Assembly: GCF_014174155.1 (NCBI RefSeq)
Contig: NZ_JABEQM010000001.1
Coordinates: 248,001 to 312,000, forward strand
DNA length: 64,000 nucleotides
Direction of reading: 5' to 3'
Source of the DNA: Gluconacetobacter tumulisoli
Lineage (GTDB): Bacteria > Pseudomonadota > Alphaproteobacteria > Acetobacterales > Acetobacteraceae
In this document: positions 2-63,963 of the stretch, in pieces
Layout: each line of letters begins with the position of its first letter
How positions within the stretch are numbered: position 1 is the first letter of the stretch
Position numbers and translations under genes: made by a program
The notes under the pieces: model-generated
The model's input: only the letters and a program-made list of their open reading frames with translations
Database searches by the model: none
Told to the model about the DNA's origin: nothing

Positions 2-8047
<8,046 letters not shown>

Positions 8048-8062
8048 GCCGCCGGGAATCGG

Positions 8063-8098
8063 AAAAAAGGCCGGGTGGCGACACCCGGCCTTTTTTTT
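8063..8098 (+). terminator. Intrinsic terminator after rpoC
   Basis: A perfect 9-bp GC-rich stem (GGCCGGGTG at 8069-8077 with CACCCGGCC at 8082-8090) closes a GCGA tetraloop and is followed directly by eight T residues. An A-run just upstream could allow weak activity on the other strand. Confidence 0.95.
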
Positions 8099-28638: not shown

Positions 28639-28676
28639 AAAAGGCCCCGGGGCAATCCTGCCCCGGGGCCTTTTTT
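28639..28676. terminator. Bidirectional terminator
   Basis: GGCCCCGGGG (28643-28652) and CCCCGGGGCC (28661-28670) form a perfect 10-bp stem with six T residues on the + side and four A residues on the other side. It serves the DUF1328 gene and, in reverse, the end of the efflux operon. Confidence 0.92.
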
Positions 28677-41652: not shown

Positions 41653-43803
41653 TCATGTCCGGCCTTCGCGCCACCAGGCCAGCAGCAGGGCCGCGCCGGC
41701 GACGAGCAGGGCCACCCATCCGGGCAGCAGGGGCTGCGCGCTGCGTCCCGTCACGATCCGGGCATCGCGGTGGGGAAACCCGATCCATCCCGGCCCCGAC
41801 AGCGTGCCCGATGCGGCCAGGCGCAAGCCGGGGACATCGGGATGCGCCGGATCGTCGCCCAGCCAGCGGACGGCGCCGCCGGTCTGCGTGGCCAGGGGGG
41901 CCAGCAGGGTTGCGGTGGCGCGCAAATCGGCGAATTCCTGCGGGTCGGCCATGGCCGGGGCTGCGAACGCGCGATGCGTGCCGTCGTCGGCGGTCCAGAT
42001 TCCCGGCAGGGCTGCGGGCAGCGTGGCCTCGGACAGGCCGGTGCCCGAGATGTGCAGGGGAACGGATTGCGTCGTGCCGTCCGGCGCGGTGACGGTGACC
42101 GCCCGTGGGCCGGCGGGGGCCGCGGTGCGGTGGACGATCCGCATCCGCCCGTCCGCGATCGTGGCGGTCAGCTGTTCTTCCTCCAACTCCGGTTCCTTCA
42201 TCAGCCAGTGAGAGATCCGGCGCAGCAGTTCCGATTGCGGGCCGCCCCCGCCCTCGCCATGCGACCAGAGCCAGATCTGGTCGGACAGCAGCAGGGCGAC
42301 GCGCCCCCGCTCCACCCGGTCCAGGACCAGCAGGGGGGTGTGGTCGGGGCCGTCCATCAGGACCTGGCCGTGGGCCGAATCGGCCTTCAGCGTCCGGTAC
42401 CACGGTCCCCATTCCGCATCATGTCCCTGGGCGCCGGCGCCCGGCAGGCTGGCGGTCACGGGATGGCGGCGGCCGCTGTCGGTCAGGGCGGGACGGAAGC
42501 GTTGTTCCAGCAATCCGCCGTCGACGGGGACATGGGCGGGCAGGATCTCGCCCACGGGCGTGTCCTGGAGCGAGCCGGGACCGAGGAATTCCGGTCCGCC
42601 GATCAGCAGCAGTCCGCCGCCGTCGCGCACGTAGTTCGCGATGTTTTCCAAATAGGCGCGCGGCAGGATGGCCCGGTTCTCGAAGCCGTCCAGGATGATC
42701 AGGTCGAACTGGCCGATCTTCTGCTGGAACAGTTCGCGCACCGGGAAGGCGATCAGCGCCAGGTCCGACAGCGGCGTGCCGTCATCCTTGTCGGGCGGCC
42801 GCAGGATCGTGAAATGCACCAGATCCACCGACGGATCGGCCTTCAGCAGGCGGCGCCAGACCCGTTCGCCCTGGTTGGGGGTCCCCGATACCAGCAGCAC
42901 CCGCAACCGGTCCCGCACACCGTTGATGCGCACGACGTCCTGGTTGTTGGCGGTCGAGACCTCGCCGGGCAGCGCCGAGGCGGCCAGGCCGACCAGCAGC
43001 GGCCCCGGCCGGGTGACCGGCAGCGTGATGTCCTGGGGGATGCCGGTGCGGACAGTTTCGTGCAACGGGGCCTCGCCGCCGCGCGACAAGGTCAGCGCGG
43101 CGTGGCCATCGGCGGCCGGGTGCGGACCCAGATCGTCGATTTCGACCCGCAAGGTCGCATTCTGGCCGACGATGGCATAGGGCGGGGCCTGGAGGATGCG
43201 CAGGCGGCGGTCGGTTTCCTCGCCGCGCCCGGTCAGCAGGACGTGCAGGGGCAGGGTCGTGCGGCGTCCATCGGCATCGGCGGGGCGCAGATGGTCCGGA
43301 ACGGTCGCCGGCACGTCGTGGTCCTGCCCGTCCGTCACCAGCACCGCCCCGGCAAGGCGCGCCGGCGGAATGTCGGCCGCTGCCTGGTCCAGCGCGGCGA
43401 GCAGGCGCGTGCCGTCGCCGTGCCCGTCGCGCACCGTAACCGTCCGCACGGTCAGGCCGGGGACCCGCGCCGCCGCCTGCTGCATCAGTTCGGCTGCCTG
43501 GCGGGCCGTGGCCGCGCGTTGCCCGATGGACATCGACGGTGACTGGTCGACCAGCAGCAGGGCGGTCTGCGGCAGGGGCTGGCCGGTTTCGCGGATCAGT
43601 TCCGGGCCGGCCAGCCACAGCAGCAGCGCCGCCGCCGCCGCCAGGCGCCACAGCGCGCCCCGCGTCCGGCGCGCCAGCCCTGCGATCGCGGCGGCGGCGG
43701 CCAGGGCGGCCAGGGCATACAGCACGGGCGTCGGTACCAGGGGCGCCCATCCCATCATGTGCCCCATCATGTGATGCAGCGTCGCCAGACCGGGCATCCT
43801 CAT
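41653..43803 (-). CDS. Membrane protein with vWA-like and glutamine-amidotransferase-like domains
   Basis: The 716-residue product has two N-terminal membrane segments, then a MIDAS-type DxSxS motif (LLLVDQSPSMS, near residue 85). A Rossmann-like GATase1 segment follows (FDLIILDGFENRAILPRAYL, then VRDGGGLLLIGGPEFLGPG). One C-terminal membrane helix ends it. Catalytic cysteine of true amidotransferases is not evident. It is the last gene of the moxR-DUF58-DUF4159 cluster, overlapping its neighbour by four bases. It is probably a membrane partner of the MoxR ATPase; substrate unknown. Confidence 0.82.
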   Translation of the reverse strand: MRMPGLATLHHMMGHMMGWAPLVPTPVLYALAALAAAAAIAGLARRTRGALWRLAAAAALLLWLAGPELIRETGQPLPQTALLLVDQSPSMSIGQRAATARQAAELMQQAAARVPGLTVRTVTVRDGHGDGTRLLAALDQAAADIPPARLAGAVLVTDGQDHDVPATVPDHLRPADADGRRTTLPLHVLLTGRGEETDRRLRILQAPPYAIVGQNATLRVEIDDLGPHPAADGHAALTLSRGGEAPLHETVRTGIPQDITLPVTRPGPLLVGLAASALPGEVSTANNQDVVRINGVRDRLRVLLVSGTPNQGERVWRRLLKADPSVDLVHFTILRPPDKDDGTPLSDLALIAFPVRELFQQKIGQFDLIILDGFENRAILPRAYLENIANYVRDGGGLLLIGGPEFLGPGSLQDTPVGEILPAHVPVDGGLLEQRFRPALTDSGRRHPVTASLPGAGAQGHDAEWGPWYRTLKADSAHGQVLMDGPDHTPLLVLDRVERGRVALLLSDQIWLWSHGEGGGGPQSELLRRISHWLMKEPELEEEQLTATIADGRMRIVHRTAAPAGPRAVTVTAPDGTTQSVPLHISGTGLSEATLPAALPGIWTADDGTHRAFAAPAMADPQEFADLRATATLLAPLATQTGGAVRWLGDDPAHPDVPGLRLAASGTLSGPGWIGFPHRDARIVTGRSAQPLLPGWVALLVAGAALLLAWWREGRT

Positions 43804-46616
43804 TCCCCCAGCCGCTTCAGCAGGGCGGGAACATGGACCTGGTCCGCCTTGTAATTGCCCGTCAGGGCATAGAGGACCGCGTTCACACCGAACCGGTACG
43901 CCGTCGTGCGCTGCGTGTCGCCGTCGGGCATGGTGGCATAGGGGGTGTCGCCCTGGGCATCCACCGCCCAGGCATGTGCCCAGTCGCTGGACCCGATGAT
44001 GACGGGGCTGACCCCGTCATTCGCGCTGTCGCCTTCGCGCGAGACCCAGACCGGCAGTCCGCCGTACCGACCCGGAAAATCGTGCAGCAGGTAGAAGGTG
44101 TGGGCCAGCACGTGGTGGTCGTCCAGCCGGGTCAGGGGCGGGATATCCAGCCCCTTCGTCATGCGCCGCAGTGCCGCCGCCGCGCCGGGGGCGGGGGCCG
44201 CGAAACCGGCGCCGGCCGCGCCCGGCGCGGCGGTGGCGGGGTCGACGCCCTGGCTGTCGATCAGCAGGATTCCGCCATGCTGCATGTAGGCGTTCAACGC
44301 GGCGGTCCGTGCCGGATTGGCCGTCGCGTCCGGCGTTACCGGCCAGTAGAGCATCGGATAATAGGACAAATCGTCGCGTTCCGGCACCACGCCGTCCGGA
44401 TGGCCCAGCACGGCGGAGGTCCGGGCGTTGGCGTAGTTCGACAGGCCCTGCAACCCTTCGCGCGAGACCGTGTCCACGTCGTCATGCCCGGTGAGGATAT
44501 AGCCCAGCCGGGTTTCCAGCGCCGCGCCGGGAACCGGAACCCCGCGATCCGGGTCGGTCGCGGCCGACAGCGGCGCCGGCAGCGCGGCCATGCCGGACAG
44601 CACCAGCAGCAGGACGCCGCCGGTCCGGCCCATCCGTCCCGCGCCTATCCGTCCGCCGCGCAGCAGCAGGCTGACGATCGCGTCGACGACCAGCAGCAAC
44701 AGGGCCGCCGCCACCAGCCACGGACCCGGCGCGATATCGTGGACCTGCCCGTCGAGATCCGCGACCTGGCCGATGGCGGCCTGTGCCACGAGGGGACCCG
44801 CCGCATCGCCCACATTCAGCGCGCGCCGCGCCGTGCGCGGGCCATACAACCCCGCCGGGTGCGCGGCCGAGACCGGGGTGGTGCCGAACGCATCGGCAGG
44901 CAGGGCACGGGCGCCCGGTGGCGGGGGGACCAGGATCGCGTCGCTGTCCAGCGTCATGTAGGGGGACAGCAGGCTGTGGTCCGCCGGGGCCTCGATCCCC
45001 GTGGCGCGCTCGGCCAGTCGCCGCAGCATGGCGACGAACAGGCCGGAAAGCGGCAGGTTGGACCAGTCGGCCGTGCCGGTGACGTGGAACAGCACGATTT
45101 CGCCCGACCCCAGGGCGGCATGGGTGACCAGCGGCGTGCCGTCCGCCAGACGCGCCCAGCTATGTTCGTCGAGGTCGGTGGCGGGGCGGGCCAGGACCTG
45201 GCGCGAGATGGTCACGTCGGCGGGGATCGCCAGCCCGTGGAAGGGGGAGGCCGCCGGGAACGGGGCGAGAGGTTCCGGCCTGCCCCACGACATGGCGCCC
45301 CCAAGCTGGCGTTCGCCGTCCATCAGCGGGACGGGCAGAAGCGTATCCTCGATCGTGGAAGACAGGAGGGCGGGCGGCGGAGCGTCCGGCACCTCGGCCT
45401 CCGTCGGCATGTCCGGCGCGGGTGTGCGGTTCAGCAGCGGGCCGGCGAAACGCACCAGCATGCCGCCCTTGCGCACCCAGGCCGCGACGGCGCGCCGGGT
45501 TTCGGGATCGTCCAGCGTGCCGTCCGGGGCGATCAGCACCGAAAGCGGCCGCGCCAGCAGGGCCGCGACACGACCCTCGCGGATCTCGGCGGTGGGCGAC
45601 AGCGCACGGCGCAGGTAGAAAAGCGGGCCGACCAGCGGCGTGTCCGTTCCGCCCACGGACACCAGCCCGACCGGCCGCCGCCGGTCGCCTTCGTCCAGCA
45701 GGCGGACCCCGGCCGGGCCGACCATGTCCTCCAGGACCAGGCGGTCGATCCGGTTGCGCAGTTCGGCGGGCATCGCGACCGAGGCGTCGGCATGGTCGTC
45801 GCCTGCCGGCAGGGAAACCGGAACCAGGCCCAGGACGCCGCCATCGGCGGTTTCGGCGCGGACGGTCATGCGGCGCGGATGCCCGGACGGGACGGCCGCG
45901 ACCGAGACGGCCAGCGCCCCGTCGGCGGGCGGCGTCGGGCGCAGCACGGCGAGAGTGGCGGTCTGCGCACGCAGGGTGCGCACCGGCCCGATGGCGGCCA
46001 GCGCGGTTGCGAACGCGCCGTCGGCCGGTCCGGCCAGGCCGTCCGAGACATAGACGACGGGACCGTGCCAGCCGGCAGCGGCAAGGTCGCGCAGGGCCCG
46101 GGTGGCCGCGGCGCGGTCGGTCGGCCAGGGACGGGCGCGCGTCGTGTCCAGCGCATCGCGCAGCAACGCCGGCGTCATCGGCGCCCCGGCGGCGGGGGCC
46201 TCGCCGGCCAGGCCCGGCGCCGTGGTCAGCAGGCGCGCCTGGCGCCCGGTCCGGCCCGCGCGGTCCAGCACGGCGTCCAAGGCCGCGATGCGCCGCGGCC
46301 AGCCCGGGCTGGCCGCCCAGCCATTGTCCAGGACCAGCAGGACGTCGCCGGCGGCGTCGGTCGTCGTCGCCTGGCGGTCGCGCACGATCAGGGGGCCGGC
46401 GAGCCCGACGATCAGGACGGCCAGCGCCAGGCAGCGCAGCAGCAGCAGCCAGAGCGGCGCGGTCGCGGCGTCGGTCGTCCGGTCGCGCAAGCCGCGCAGC
46501 AGCATGATGGCCGGAAAGACCTGCCGGCGCGGGGCCGGCGGCAGGGCGCGCAGCAGCAGCCAGACGACCGGCAGGATCGCCAGTCCCGCCAGCAGCAGGG
46601 GGGCCTGGAAGATCAT
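43800..46616 (-). CDS. BatA/DUF4159 membrane protein
   Basis: The 938-residue product starts with the BatA aerotolerance-type N-terminus (MIFQAPLLLAGLAILPVVWL, two membrane segments, then VLLVLDNGWAAS in a degenerate vWA region). It has two further membrane helices near residues 620-690 and ends with a DUF4159 domain (LETRLGYILTGHDDVDTVSR, then SYYPMLYWPV). The family is linked to MoxR clusters in Alphaproteobacteria. Function unknown; a role in envelope or complex maturation is inferred from context. Start overlaps the DUF58 stop (ATGA). Confidence 0.87.
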   Translation of the reverse strand: MIFQAPLLLAGLAILPVVWLLLRALPPAPRRQVFPAIMLLRGLRDRTTDAATAPLWLLLLRCLALAVLIVGLAGPLIVRDRQATTTDAAGDVLLVLDNGWAASPGWPRRIAALDAVLDRAGRTGRQARLLTTAPGLAGEAPAAGAPMTPALLRDALDTTRARPWPTDRAAATRALRDLAAAGWHGPVVYVSDGLAGPADGAFATALAAIGPVRTLRAQTATLAVLRPTPPADGALAVSVAAVPSGHPRRMTVRAETADGGVLGLVPVSLPAGDDHADASVAMPAELRNRIDRLVLEDMVGPAGVRLLDEGDRRRPVGLVSVGGTDTPLVGPLFYLRRALSPTAEIREGRVAALLARPLSVLIAPDGTLDDPETRRAVAAWVRKGGMLVRFAGPLLNRTPAPDMPTEAEVPDAPPPALLSSTIEDTLLPVPLMDGERQLGGAMSWGRPEPLAPFPAASPFHGLAIPADVTISRQVLARPATDLDEHSWARLADGTPLVTHAALGSGEIVLFHVTGTADWSNLPLSGLFVAMLRRLAERATGIEAPADHSLLSPYMTLDSDAILVPPPPGARALPADAFGTTPVSAAHPAGLYGPRTARRALNVGDAAGPLVAQAAIGQVADLDGQVHDIAPGPWLVAAALLLLVVDAIVSLLLRGGRIGAGRMGRTGGVLLLVLSGMAALPAPLSAATDPDRGVPVPGAALETRLGYILTGHDDVDTVSREGLQGLSNYANARTSAVLGHPDGVVPERDDLSYYPMLYWPVTPDATANPARTAALNAYMQHGGILLIDSQGVDPATAAPGAAGAGFAAPAPGAAAALRRMTKGLDIPPLTRLDDHHVLAHTFYLLHDFPGRYGGLPVWVSREGDSANDGVSPVIIGSSDWAHAWAVDAQGDTPYATMPDGDTQRTTAYRFGVNAVLYALTGNYKADQVHVPALLKRLGE

Positions 46617-61293: not shown

Positions 61294-61689
61294 ATGGAAC
61301 AGGACAAGGCGGGCTGCGGCACGGGATGCGGCGTGCTGACGCCGGAGCAGGTCCGCGTGATGCGCGAACATGGCACCGAACGTCCGGGCTCCAGCCCCCT
61401 GAACGACGAGAAGCGCCCGGGCCTGTATCGCTGTGCGGCCTGCGGAACGCCGCTGTTCCGGTCGGAGACCAAGTATGAGAGCGGCAGCGGCTGGCCATCC
61501 TATTTCGATGCGCTGCCCGGGGCGGTCGAGACCACGGTCGATACCAGCCATGGCATGGTCCGCGTCGAGGTGCATTGCGCGTCCTGCAAGGGTCATCTGG
61601 GCCATGTCTTCCCCGACGGTCCGCGTCCGACCGGGCGGCGATACTGCATGAACGGCGTGGCGCTGGATTTCGTACCCGATACGCAATAG
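61294..61689 (+). CDS. msrB: Peptide-methionine (R)-S-oxide reductase
   Basis: MsrB repairs oxidised methionine in proteins. ATG 61294 (131 residues) has GGAGACAG upstream. Zinc cysteines are Cys47, Cys50, Cys95 and Cys98, and the catalytic cysteine is Cys118 (RRYCMNG). The family blocks [13 protein letters not shown] and [11 protein letters not shown] are intact. An N-terminal CGTGCG motif adds two extra cysteines of unknown role. Confidence 0.95.
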
Positions 61690-61721
61690 GCGCGCCGTCC
61701 GGTGTGATCTAAAAGGGTGCC

Positions 61722-62375
61722 ATGACCGAACGAAAGACATCCCACCCTTCCTCCGTGGTCGTGCTCGACCACCCGCTTGTCCAGCACAAGCTGACGCGTC
61801 TGCGCCAGAAGGCGACCTCCACGGCAGGGTTCCGGCGCCTGACGCGGGAACTCAGCCTGCTGATGGCCTACGAGGCGACCCGCGACCTGCCGCTGGAAGC
61901 GGTCGAGATCGAGACGCCGCTGGAGAAGACCCAGGGCCATCTCCTGTCGGGCAAGAAGCTCTGCCTGGTGTCGATCCTGCGGGCGGGCAACGGGATCCTG
62001 GACGGGATGCTGGACCTCGTGCCCGCCGCCCGCGTGGGACATATCGGCCTGTTCCGGGATCCGACGACCCTGGAGCCGGTCGAATATTACATGAAGCTGC
62101 CCGAGGATATCGCCGAGCGCGTATGCATCGTCGTCGATCCGATGCTGGCGACCGGGCACAGCGCCGCCGCGGCGATCGACCGGCTGAAGCGTGCGGGCGC
62201 CCGGCAGATCGTGTTCGTCTGCCTGCTGGCGGCCCCCGAAGGGGTGGCGTTCCTGTCGGGCGCGCATCCGGACGTGAAGATCGTCACCTGTTCAATCGAC
62301 CGCGAACTGGACGATCACGGCTATATCCGGCCCGGCCTGGGCGATGCCGGCGACCGCCTGTTCGGCACCAAATAG
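61722..62375 (+). CDS. upp: Uracil phosphoribosyltransferase
   Basis: This pyrimidine salvage enzyme makes UMP from uracil and PRPP. The 217-residue product has the PRPP-binding loop [11 protein letters not shown] (residues 137-147), the uracil-binding C-terminus ([21 protein letters not shown]), and the [13 protein letters not shown] stretch. It starts 32 bp after msrB. A dodecin gene lies 65 bp downstream on the same strand. Confidence 0.97.
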
Positions 62376-62385
62376 GGGCCGCGCC

Positions 62386-62410
62386 GGAACCGTCGCCGCC
62401 GGACATCGTT
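62386..62410 (+). promoter_or_regulatory. EcfG-type general stress promoter for dodecin
   Basis: GGAAC (62386-62390) and CGTT (62407-62410) are separated by 16 bp, an exact match to the general-stress sigma consensus. A start site would be near 62416-62420, giving a leader of about 21-25 nt with the ribosome binding site AGGGAG at 62428-62433. Confidence 0.65.
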
Positions 62411-62448
62411 TCCCTTTTCACAGGATCAGGGAGAAAAACGATGTCCGG
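62399..62448 (+). promoter_or_regulatory. 13-bp inverted repeat sequestering the dodecin start codon
   Basis: CCGGACATCGTTT (62399-62411) is the exact reverse complement of AAACGATGTCCGG (62436-62448), which contains the ATG at 62441. The 24-nt loop holds the ribosome binding site. The left arm overlaps the stress promoter -10 motif, so it is transcribed only in RNA starting further upstream, such as upp read-through. Confidence 0.7.
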
Positions 62449-62653
62449 TCATGTGTACAAGGTCCTCGAACTGGTCGGATCGTCGCCCGACACGGTCGAG
62501 GGCGCGATTGCCGCCGCCCTGGGCCGCGCGTCCGAAACTGTGCATTCCATCCGCTGGTTCGAGGTCGTGGGAACGCGCGGCCACGTCGTCGACGGCAAGG
62601 TCAGCCATTACCAGGTCACACTGAAGGTAGGCTTCACCCTCGACGAGGTGTGA
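62441..62653 (+). CDS. Dodecin family flavin-binding protein
   Basis: Dodecins form hollow dodecamers that store flavins or related ligands and protect them. The 70-residue product starts [23 protein letters not shown] and has the ligand-stacking tryptophan in [14 protein letters not shown] and the [12 protein letters not shown] end. A stress-type promoter and an inverted repeat over the start codon lie directly upstream. A longer in-frame ORF upstream is antisense-like noise within upp. Confidence 0.94.
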
Positions 62654-62700
62654 ATGGCTGGCCGTGGATGGTGCCCGAAGGATGCCAAAAAACTGGTTTG

Positions 62701-62746
62701 CAGAGGCGACGCCTCTGGCGGGGCGCGGGAGAGCGCCCCGCGTTTT
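62701..62746. terminator. Paired hairpins between dodecin and ilvA
   Basis: GCGGGGCGC (62718-62726) and GCGCCCCGC (62733-62741) are followed by TTTT, a terminator for dodecin on +. Next to it CAGAGGCG/CGCCTCTG (62701-62717, 1-nt centre) is a 17-bp palindrome, which on - is followed by a T-rich stretch and could terminate ilvA. Confidence 0.75.
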
Positions 62747-63963
62747 CAGACCCGTCGGACGATATAGGTCTTCGACAGTTCGCCCATGATGTCCAGCGCG
62801 TGCGACGGATCGCGGGCCTCGATCATCACTTCCAGTTCCGCCGCCTGAACGCTGGGTGCGGTGAACAGGCGCTGGTGCGAGACCTCGATGATGTTGCCCC
62901 CGGCCTCGCCGATGGTGCGCGAGATGTCGGCCAGGATGCCCGGCCGGTCGGGGATTTCCATCTTCAGGCACAGCAGCCGTCCGTCGCGCAGCAGCGACCG
63001 CAGCAGGGTGTTGGCCAGGATTCGGCTATCGATGTTGCCGCCGGTCACCGGTAGGGCGATCCGTTTGCCCTGGAACAGTTCAGGATAGGTCAGCACGGCC
63101 GCCAGCGCGGTGGCGCCTGCGCCCTCGCTGACCTGCTTGGCGCCCTCGGCCATCAGGGTGATCGCGTCCTCGACCGCGCGTTCGGGCACCACCAGCACGC
63201 GCGACACATGATGGCGGATGACCTCCAGCGGCTGGCGGCCGATCTGCAGGACGGCGATGCCCTCGGCGATGGTGGCGCCGCCGGTGGGCATGATTTCGTC
63301 GCCGGGAAAGGCGGACAGCGACGAATGGCTTTCGACCTGCACGCCAACGACATCTATGCCCGGGCGAAGGGCGGCGGCCACGACCGCGCAGCCCGACAGC
63401 AGGCCGCCGCCGCCGATCGGACCGACGAACATGTCCAGCGGCCCGGCATCCTCGAATAGTTCCAGCGCGAACGTGCCCTGGCCGGCCATGACCGCCGGAT
63501 CGTCGTAGGGGTGGACGAACACGCGCCCTTCGCGCTGGCACAAGGCGTTGGCGTGGGCGGTGGCCTCGGCGAAGCTGCTGCCTTCCAGGACGACGCGCGC
63601 GCCCCAGGCGGCGGTGCGCGTCACCTTGGCCGCCGGGGTGAAGCGCGGCATCACGATGACCGCGTCGATCTCCAGCAGGGCGGCATGGCGGGCCACGCCC
63701 TGGGCATGGTTGCCGGCGGATACGGTGATGACGCCGCGTTCGCGCTCCGCCGGGGTCAGCAGCGCGAGCTTGTTGGCGGCGCCGCGTTCCTTGAACGATC
63801 CCACCGCCTGCAGATTGTCGAGCTTGAGCACGATATCCGCGCCCGTCGCCTTCGACAGGGCATGCGACGGCACGGTGGGCGTCCGCAGGATGCGCCCCTC
63901 GATGCGGGACGCGGCCGCGCGCACGTCATCCAGGGTGATCATGCCCGTCCTCAGCATGTCCAT
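62746..63963 (-). CDS. ilvA: Threonine ammonia-lyase with C-terminal ACT domain
   Basis: This PLP enzyme deaminates threonine to 2-oxobutyrate, the first step to isoleucine, or works catabolically. The 405-residue product has the PLP lysine Lys58 in GSFKERGA, the SAGNHAQGVA loop and the phosphate-binding GPIGGGGLLSGC. An ACT domain at about 325-405 suggests amino-acid regulation. Length fits the short, single-ACT type. ATG 63963 is assigned; ATG 63957 or 63942 are alternatives. Biosynthetic versus catabolic role is not decided by the sequence. Confidence 0.93.
   Translation of the reverse strand: MDMLRTGMITLDDVRAAASRIEGRILRTPTVPSHALSKATGADIVLKLDNLQAVGSFKERGAANKLALLTPAERERGVITVSAGNHAQGVARHAALLEIDAVIVMPRFTPAAKVTRTAAWGARVVLEGSSFAEATAHANALCQREGRVFVHPYDDPAVMAGQGTFALELFEDAGPLDMFVGPIGGGGLLSGCAVVAAALRPGIDVVGVQVESHSSLSAFPGDEIMPTGGATIAEGIAVLQIGRQPLEVIRHHVSRVLVVPERAVEDAITLMAEGAKQVSEGAGATALAAVLTYPELFQGKRIALPVTGGNIDSRILANTLLRSLLRDGRLLCLKMEIPDRPGILADISRTIGEAGGNIIEVSHQRLFTAPSVQAAELEVMIEARDPSHALDIMGELSKTYIVRRV

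Follow-up and report, generated by a model that had tools for sequence, protein, structure and literature searches.

A predicted stress promoter that overlaps one arm of a hairpin over the dodecin start codon behind upp in Gluconacetobacter: a candidate translation lock gated by promoter choice

How might a gene that lies directly behind a metabolic gene, in the same orientation, be reserved for its own stress promoter? A locus of Gluconacetobacter tumulisoli, near the end of the 64-kb stretch of DNA that we analyzed (hereafter the window), raises this question. It holds upp, encoding uracil phosphoribosyltransferase (61722-62375, plus strand; open reading frame with PF14681 at E 4.8e-78 and TIGR01091 at 270.7 bits, above cut-off), and, on the same strand and 65 nt further on, a gene for a 70-residue dodecin (62441-62653; PF07311 at E 9.6e-28, NF043052 at 110.9 bits, above the cut-off of 75). 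Dodecin is described in one source as a flavin-homeostasis protein (PMC8044443).

The upp-dodecin interval and its predicted stress promoter

The initial annotation had placed an EcfG-type promoter motif, GGAAC-N16-CGTT, at 62386-62410, together with a perfect 13-bp inverted repeat that has the dodecin start codon in its right arm, and the sequence is as it claimed. The -35 element GGAAC occupies 62386-62390 and the -10 element CGTT 62407-62410; the latter falls within the left arm of the repeat, CCGGACATCGTTT (62399-62411), which would occur solely in RNA begun upstream. The right arm, AAACGATGTCCGG (62436-62448), spans the ATG at 62441-62443. The two arms are 100% complementary over 13 nt with a 24-nt spacer between them, the hairpin starts 23 nt past the upp stop codon, and the Shine-Dalgarno sequence AGGGAG (62428-62433) lies between the arms. 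The window holds five perfect inverted repeats of at least 13 bp (loop 3-50 nt), of which this is one, against a single one in total in 12 first-order Markov replicas of the window (mean 0.08). The other four lie at 8063-8096, 28639-28674, 43628-43701 and 44177-44233.

A scan of 61600-62900 found no terminator-like and no sigma-70-like site. An intrinsic terminator was thus rejected as an identity for the hairpin; TCATGTGTAC comes after the right arm. From the shared orientation, the short distance and this lack of a terminator-like site in the scanned interval, we infer that RNA reads through from upp into dodecin, upp being the proposed origin of that RNA. Beyond dodecin, between it and a convergent gene for a PLP-dependent enzyme, a GC-rich hairpin (9-nt inverted repeat 62718-62726 / 62733-62741) is followed by TTTT (62743-62746); this element (62718-62746) was not scored as a terminator by the scan, which requires at least five T in eight, and is possibly the end of the upp-dodecin RNA.

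The promoter motif recurs among relatives. G[GC]AAC-N16-CGTT is present in 14/14 genomes of the genus (Gluconacetobacter, taken with Nguyenibacter). If the spacer may be 16 or 17 nt, 19 of 20 upp-linked dodecins have the motif at the same place (N17 in a single case); some relatives have GCAAC as the -35 box. Mapped start sites of Caulobacter are reported to have the SigT motif GGAAC-N16-CGTT at their -35 region, with one example at -34 (PMC4287350), and from this placement we predict the dodecin +1 at about 62420 (plausible range 62416-62421). For the Sphingopyxis regulon, GGAAC and GCAAC are reported as the two most frequent -35 boxes, and a GCAAC/CGTT promoter served EcfG in vitro transcription (PMC7083833). 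The motif-to-start distance was not found in the available text of a Sinorhizobium start-site paper (PMC3616915).

The genome also carries a general stress locus (L284, 1033-5329; contig C10, 17500-25500), which comprises phyR, two adjacent ECF sigma genes, nepR and a HisKA_2/HWE kinase gene. PhyR matches NF006623 with 282.5 bits, above the cut-off of 240; NepR is right at the cut-off of PF18557 (25.7), and the match of the kinase to PhyK is below cut-off. Both ECF sigma genes exceed the ECF superfamily cut-off only and neither passes a specific NCBIfam cut-off, so that which of the two is EcfG is deduced from the locus. Contig C5 has two further NepR-like matches no more than 1.7 kb apart, one of which does not reach the cut-off. 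The dodecin motif thus resembles alphaproteobacterial EcfG/SigT promoters both in its elements (GGAAC or GCAAC, N16, CGTT) and in the company of phyR, nepR and ECF sigma genes in the genome, and we take GGAAC-N16-CGTT to be a probable working promoter with its +1 near 62420.

Computed folds of long and short RNAs

The hairpin (50 nt) has a folding energy of -27.7 kcal/mol (z -7.1), which none of 200 shuffles equalled. Its minimum-energy fold includes an inner helix, in which UCCCU (62411-62415) pairs with AGGGA (62428-62432), part of the Shine-Dalgarno stretch. The ribosome binding site lies between the arms, as the initial annotation had proposed, but is not simply open in the loop.

The two kinds of RNA were predicted to differ sharply at the start codon: the computed probability that the AUG is unpaired is 0.00 in the long RNA from upp versus 0.78 in RNA from 62420, and opening the start region costs 22.9 kcal/mol in the long RNA versus 8.6 kcal/mol in the short one. 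Neither result depends on a particular choice of ends. Long RNAs begun at 62290, 62240, 62140, 61940 or 61722 and extending to 60 nt past the AUG all gave 0.00, and every 5' end from 62407 through 62424 gave 0.66-0.80, so the fold difference is independent of the exact +1. The proposals that read-through RNA masks the start codon and that promoter-proximal RNA, devoid of the left arm, frees it are thus borne out by computation. Within the ensemble, the Shine-Dalgarno bases 62430-62435 are unpaired at 0.42 in the long and 0.50 in the short RNA, and the long/short values for the three loci with this hairpin type are 0.42/0.50 (L001), 0.80/0.73 (L002) and 0.42/0.49 (L003). Since access to the Shine-Dalgarno stretch differs little between the two RNAs, the lock in the window type rests on the AUG.

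We infer from these folds that long and short RNAs would differ in translation. A rule of thumb for ribosome access, with a coefficient of 0.45 per kcal, translates the computed difference into a several-hundredfold effect, a figure that is illustrative only.

Taking anatomy and folds together, we consider a translation lock gated by promoter choice to be the best explanation of the locus and, on balance, a probable one. The stretch from the -10 element to just before +1 would be complementary to the dodecin start codon, the Shine-Dalgarno stretch, or both. Read-through RNA from upp, having both strands, would fold into a stable hairpin and dodecin would be poorly translated from it. The hairpin would lie over the AUG in the window type; in the commonest type of the genus it would close the Shine-Dalgarno stretch and, for the most part, the AUG as well. 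RNA from the EcfG promoter would begin past the left arm, could form no such helix and would be translated. Dodecin synthesis would consequently depend mainly on an active PhyR-NepR-EcfG cascade, regardless of how strongly upp is transcribed. Of this explanation, computation and comparison cover the anatomy, the fold difference, the compensated recurrence among congeners, the spacing to the promoter motif and the existence of the stress locus in the genome.

Recurrence of the pairing in relatives and its specificity

Dodecin is present directly behind upp in all 14 genomes of the genus, and the hairpin arms have several sequences and registers across them, not one conserved sequence. In the window type (L001-L003), CATCGTTT is paired with AAACGATG; a second type (L007 and L008) has the GTCCGGGCATCGTTTTCC pairing, and a third (L012 and L013) the CATCGTTCTTC pairing with one mismatch. 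In the commonest type (7/14) the register is shifted by one, and the Shine-Dalgarno stretch is covered by pairing of TGTTCCTC(C) with (G)GAGGAACA; four of these seven additionally pair GGGCAT with ATGTCC over the AUG. In these types, the left arms lie downstream of the upp stop codon and finish ahead of the predicted +1, with the -10 element inside the left arm or abutting it.

We compared each pairing with 1000 shuffles in which GGAAC and CGTT were kept, omitting L008 because its start region is the same as that of L007. For 10 of the 13 genus sequences the pairing exceeded the shuffles (p <= 0.009); it was not significant in L004 (0.099), L009 (0.295) and L011 (0.153). L004 has lost the AUG pairing and has no net opening gain (-0.9 kcal/mol), and the long-minus-short opening differences of L009 and L011 (3.5 and 5.8 kcal/mol) indicate a weak lock. 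The largest lock is that of L007, at 25.0 kcal/mol. L009 and L011 also carry an extra inverted repeat (GGAGGCTG...CAGCCTC) in the loop just past the predicted start site, which adds about 23 nt to the leader before the Shine-Dalgarno stretch.

Do the two arms change together? When arms were swapped between sequences, none of 20,000 permutations reached the mean of the cognate arms, with the same outcome for the 11 distinct genus arm pairs and for all 16 (relatedness uncorrected). Likewise uncorrected for relatedness, the cognate arrangement came first of 24 when each hairpin type was represented by a single sequence, first of 720 when L048 and L051 from outside the genus joined the hairpin types, and at rank 14 of 362,880 when L009, L053 and L056 were added. 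In the five sequences with a common register, both sides had changed in 4 of 17 pairs, a number reached by 11 of 500 shuffles, and slid registers gave 0 or 1; one example is a change from C-G to U-A in L003, which goes along with a Gly-to-Asp codon change. RNAalifold, run with one common register on nine sequences, found no compensated pair (covariation term -0.09), which by the usual scoring counts against the lock. We trace this outcome to a shift of register from one hairpin type to another: a base k positions past the C of CGTT pairs with -1-k in one type but with -k in the other. The shuffle, arm-swap and compensation results support the conclusion that the pairing has been kept in the genus through changes of sequence and register.

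Outside the genus we found six upp-linked dodecins, in one of which, L056, upp is about 410 nt away. Pairing was detected in two of the six, L048 (p 0.055), assigned to Acetobacteraceae bacterium KSS8 through a start region identical to that of L167, and L051 (p 0.035). The arms of both occupy the same place and lie over the Shine-Dalgarno stretch instead of the AUG; their opening differences are 14.3 and 4.2, and their AUG is no more closed in the long RNA (unpaired long/short 0.60/0.08 in L048 and 0.32/0.21 in L051). In L053, L056 and L061 the promoter motif is present and the pairing is not significant (p 0.15, 0.56 and 0.48; opening differences -1.0, 4.0 and -4.7). The motif of L056 is GCAAC-N16-CGTT; by eye, this locus has an extra small open reading frame between upp and dodecin (about 1778-2014, minus strand). 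The sixth locus, L052, has neither promoter motif nor lock. Its opening cost of 8.1 is the lowest of 19, level with that of L053 (8.1), which carries the motif, and for this reason says little. A second family search, in which 104 of 397 genomes matched, gave no new upp-linked genome among 30 loci. The expectation that relatives which keep dodecin would also keep the pairing thus held in 10 of 13 sequences within the genus, with changed sequences, and did not carry over to the remaining upp-linked dodecins, where two of six pair over the Shine-Dalgarno stretch, not the AUG. A lock general to the upp-linked dodecins of Acetobacteraceae is not supported, since it is absent in L052, L053, L056 and L061.

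In the same genome as the window, GGAAC-N16/17-CGTT occurs at 73 sites, against 31 for the reverse-pattern control. Twenty of the 73 have a plausible start codon within 110 nt, although not every such frame need be a gene. Dodecin (p 0.002, z -4.2) was the sole one of the 20 with p < 0.05; the other 19 had no significant pairing (p >= 0.07), and a smaller run on 30 of the 73 sites agreed. A wide use of the device by the EcfG genes of this genome is therefore not supported (0/19 others at p < 0.05): unlike the 19, the predicted dodecin promoter doubles as a strand that would close the ribosome binding site. Dodecin also ranked first by opening difference (14.3 kcal/mol), ahead of L047, a doubtful GTG frame (11.9). 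Two of the genome's loci, named from their translations as CsbD-like (L022) and ribosome-hibernation-factor-like (L028), have GGAAC-N16-CGTT 38 and 61 nt ahead of their starts, respectively, and no significant lock on the ribosome binding site.

Dodecin itself was found in 71 of 249 sampled Acetobacteraceae genomes. The median opening cost was 15.6 kcal/mol for 19 upp-linked versus 10.5 kcal/mol for 65 unlinked dodecins (p 5.7e-5). Among the matches listed, the only unlinked dodecins with G[GC]AAC-N16/17-CGTT within 110 nt were L062, L063 and L065, all with GCAAC. Two unlinked dodecins have costly starts of other kinds. That of L095 resembles, by eye, mirror-image ribosome sites of divergent genes; in L129, CACCCACCGG ... 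CCGGTGGGTG closes the start region (25.1 kcal/mol) without an EcfG motif.

Alternative explanations and known systems

Could the hairpin serve another role? It might act mainly for upp, by protecting or defining the 3' end of its mRNA through processing or Rho-dependent ending, with the dodecin start covered merely by position. The great stability of the hairpin and its place 23 nt past the upp stop codon would suit such a role; no terminator-like site was found in 61600-62900, however, and the arms track the dodecin Shine-Dalgarno or AUG and the -10 element in varied registers, which a 3'-end stabilizer would not need. We consider this reading unlikely, and note that a 3'-end role and the lock could coexist in the same hairpin. 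That the arms are a coincidence or by-product seems quite unlikely to us. According to this argument, complementarity to AACG and GGAGG is to be expected of a -10 CGTT and of C-rich start regions, so that separate selection would yield apparent arms; indeed, CGTT and the Shine-Dalgarno sequence are fixed by other constraints and part of the pairing uses both, and outside the genus just two of six upp-linked dodecins pair, one of them at p 0.055. Yet shuffles that preserve the promoter seldom match the pairing of the genus (10/13 at p <= 0.009), the 19 other predicted EcfG-site genes of the genome lack it, and cognate arms outdo swapped ones.

The remaining explanations concern what, if anything, acts on the repeat. 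A long RNA that is a regulated switch, opened by a small RNA, a protein or a ligand with the EcfG promoter as a second input, is compatible with the fold taken alone, but we judge it very unlikely: the arms and loop vary across the genus, unexpectedly for a shared ligand or protein site, and there was no Rfam match at E <= 1 in 62200-62800, a result on which a known RNA family was also rejected. The initial annotation had left two further options beside its main proposal, and both have lost ground. A perfect palindrome overlapping the -10 element could be a DNA operator, at which a dimeric repressor binds over the promoter; this is highly improbable, given that the half-site sequence is not conserved, that the arms change sequence and register between congeners, and that no second copy (up to three mismatches, same spacing) was found within the 64-kb window. 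An RNA thermometer that opens on heat shock would share the closed start region and is scarcely credible here: even at 80 C the AUG stays paired at 0.98 in the hairpin alone, at 45 C long and short RNAs still differ by about 14 kcal/mol in opening cost, and we rejected the thermometer because the helix is too stable to melt in the physiological range.

The proposed lock gated by promoter choice has counterparts in phages. In T4 genes e, soc, 49, I-TevI and segB and in Aeh1 mobE, RNA begun upstream is reported to hide the Shine-Dalgarno sequence, the AUG or both in a helix; RNA from a late promoter close to gene e or I-TevI lacks the 5' strand and is translated, with an effect of about 100-fold for gene e (lysozyme), and similar leaders are predicted in related phages (PMC2988022, PMC3014915). 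Arrangements like that of I-TevI are described for I-TevII, I-TevIII, segB and mobE (PMC2988022). The dodecin locus is alike in three respects: upstream RNA closes the start region (as computed), the 5' strand of the helix is encoded by the proximal promoter and hence would be absent from proximal RNA (given the predicted +1), and the structure is kept in relatives (10/13 in the genus, 2/6 outside). It differs in that dodecin is a bacterial chromosomal gene behind a metabolic gene, upp, with a lock predicted by computation, and in that the gate is a predicted EcfG-type stress promoter where that of T4 is a phage late promoter. The transposase genes of IS10 and IS50 offer another parallel: read-through RNA folds over the start region and the element's own RNA does not. 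This protection serves mobile elements and is not known to be linked to a stress sigma factor.

Our literature search recognized no bacterial chromosomal case of the same device, which does not prove that none is in print; it did not find dodecin together with EcfG, or Gluconacetobacter together with dodecin, and dodecin and PhyR co-occurred only in papers unrelated by title. The comparison supports viewing the putative dodecin lock as a chromosomal, sigma-factor-gated variant of the device known from phage T4. We give roughly even chances to the broader statement that some 35 bp of a bacterial chromosome act at once as a promoter for an alternative sigma factor and as the antisense strand of a lock on translation, that a stress protein behind a metabolic gene is silent at the protein level except from stress-sigma RNA, and that one genus, with perhaps two cases beyond it, has kept both functions together while their sequence and register changed.

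If the explanation is true, RNA abundance would misreport dodecin expression, as upp-dodecin RNA could be plentiful yet untranslated. A simple rule, a -10 region complementary to the start region, would tie operon-internal genes to one sigma factor, and suggested targets for a search are co-directional genes with an alternative-sigma promoter near the start codon and no terminator before that promoter or start. The device of phage T4 late genes would then extend to the alphaproteobacterial general stress response.
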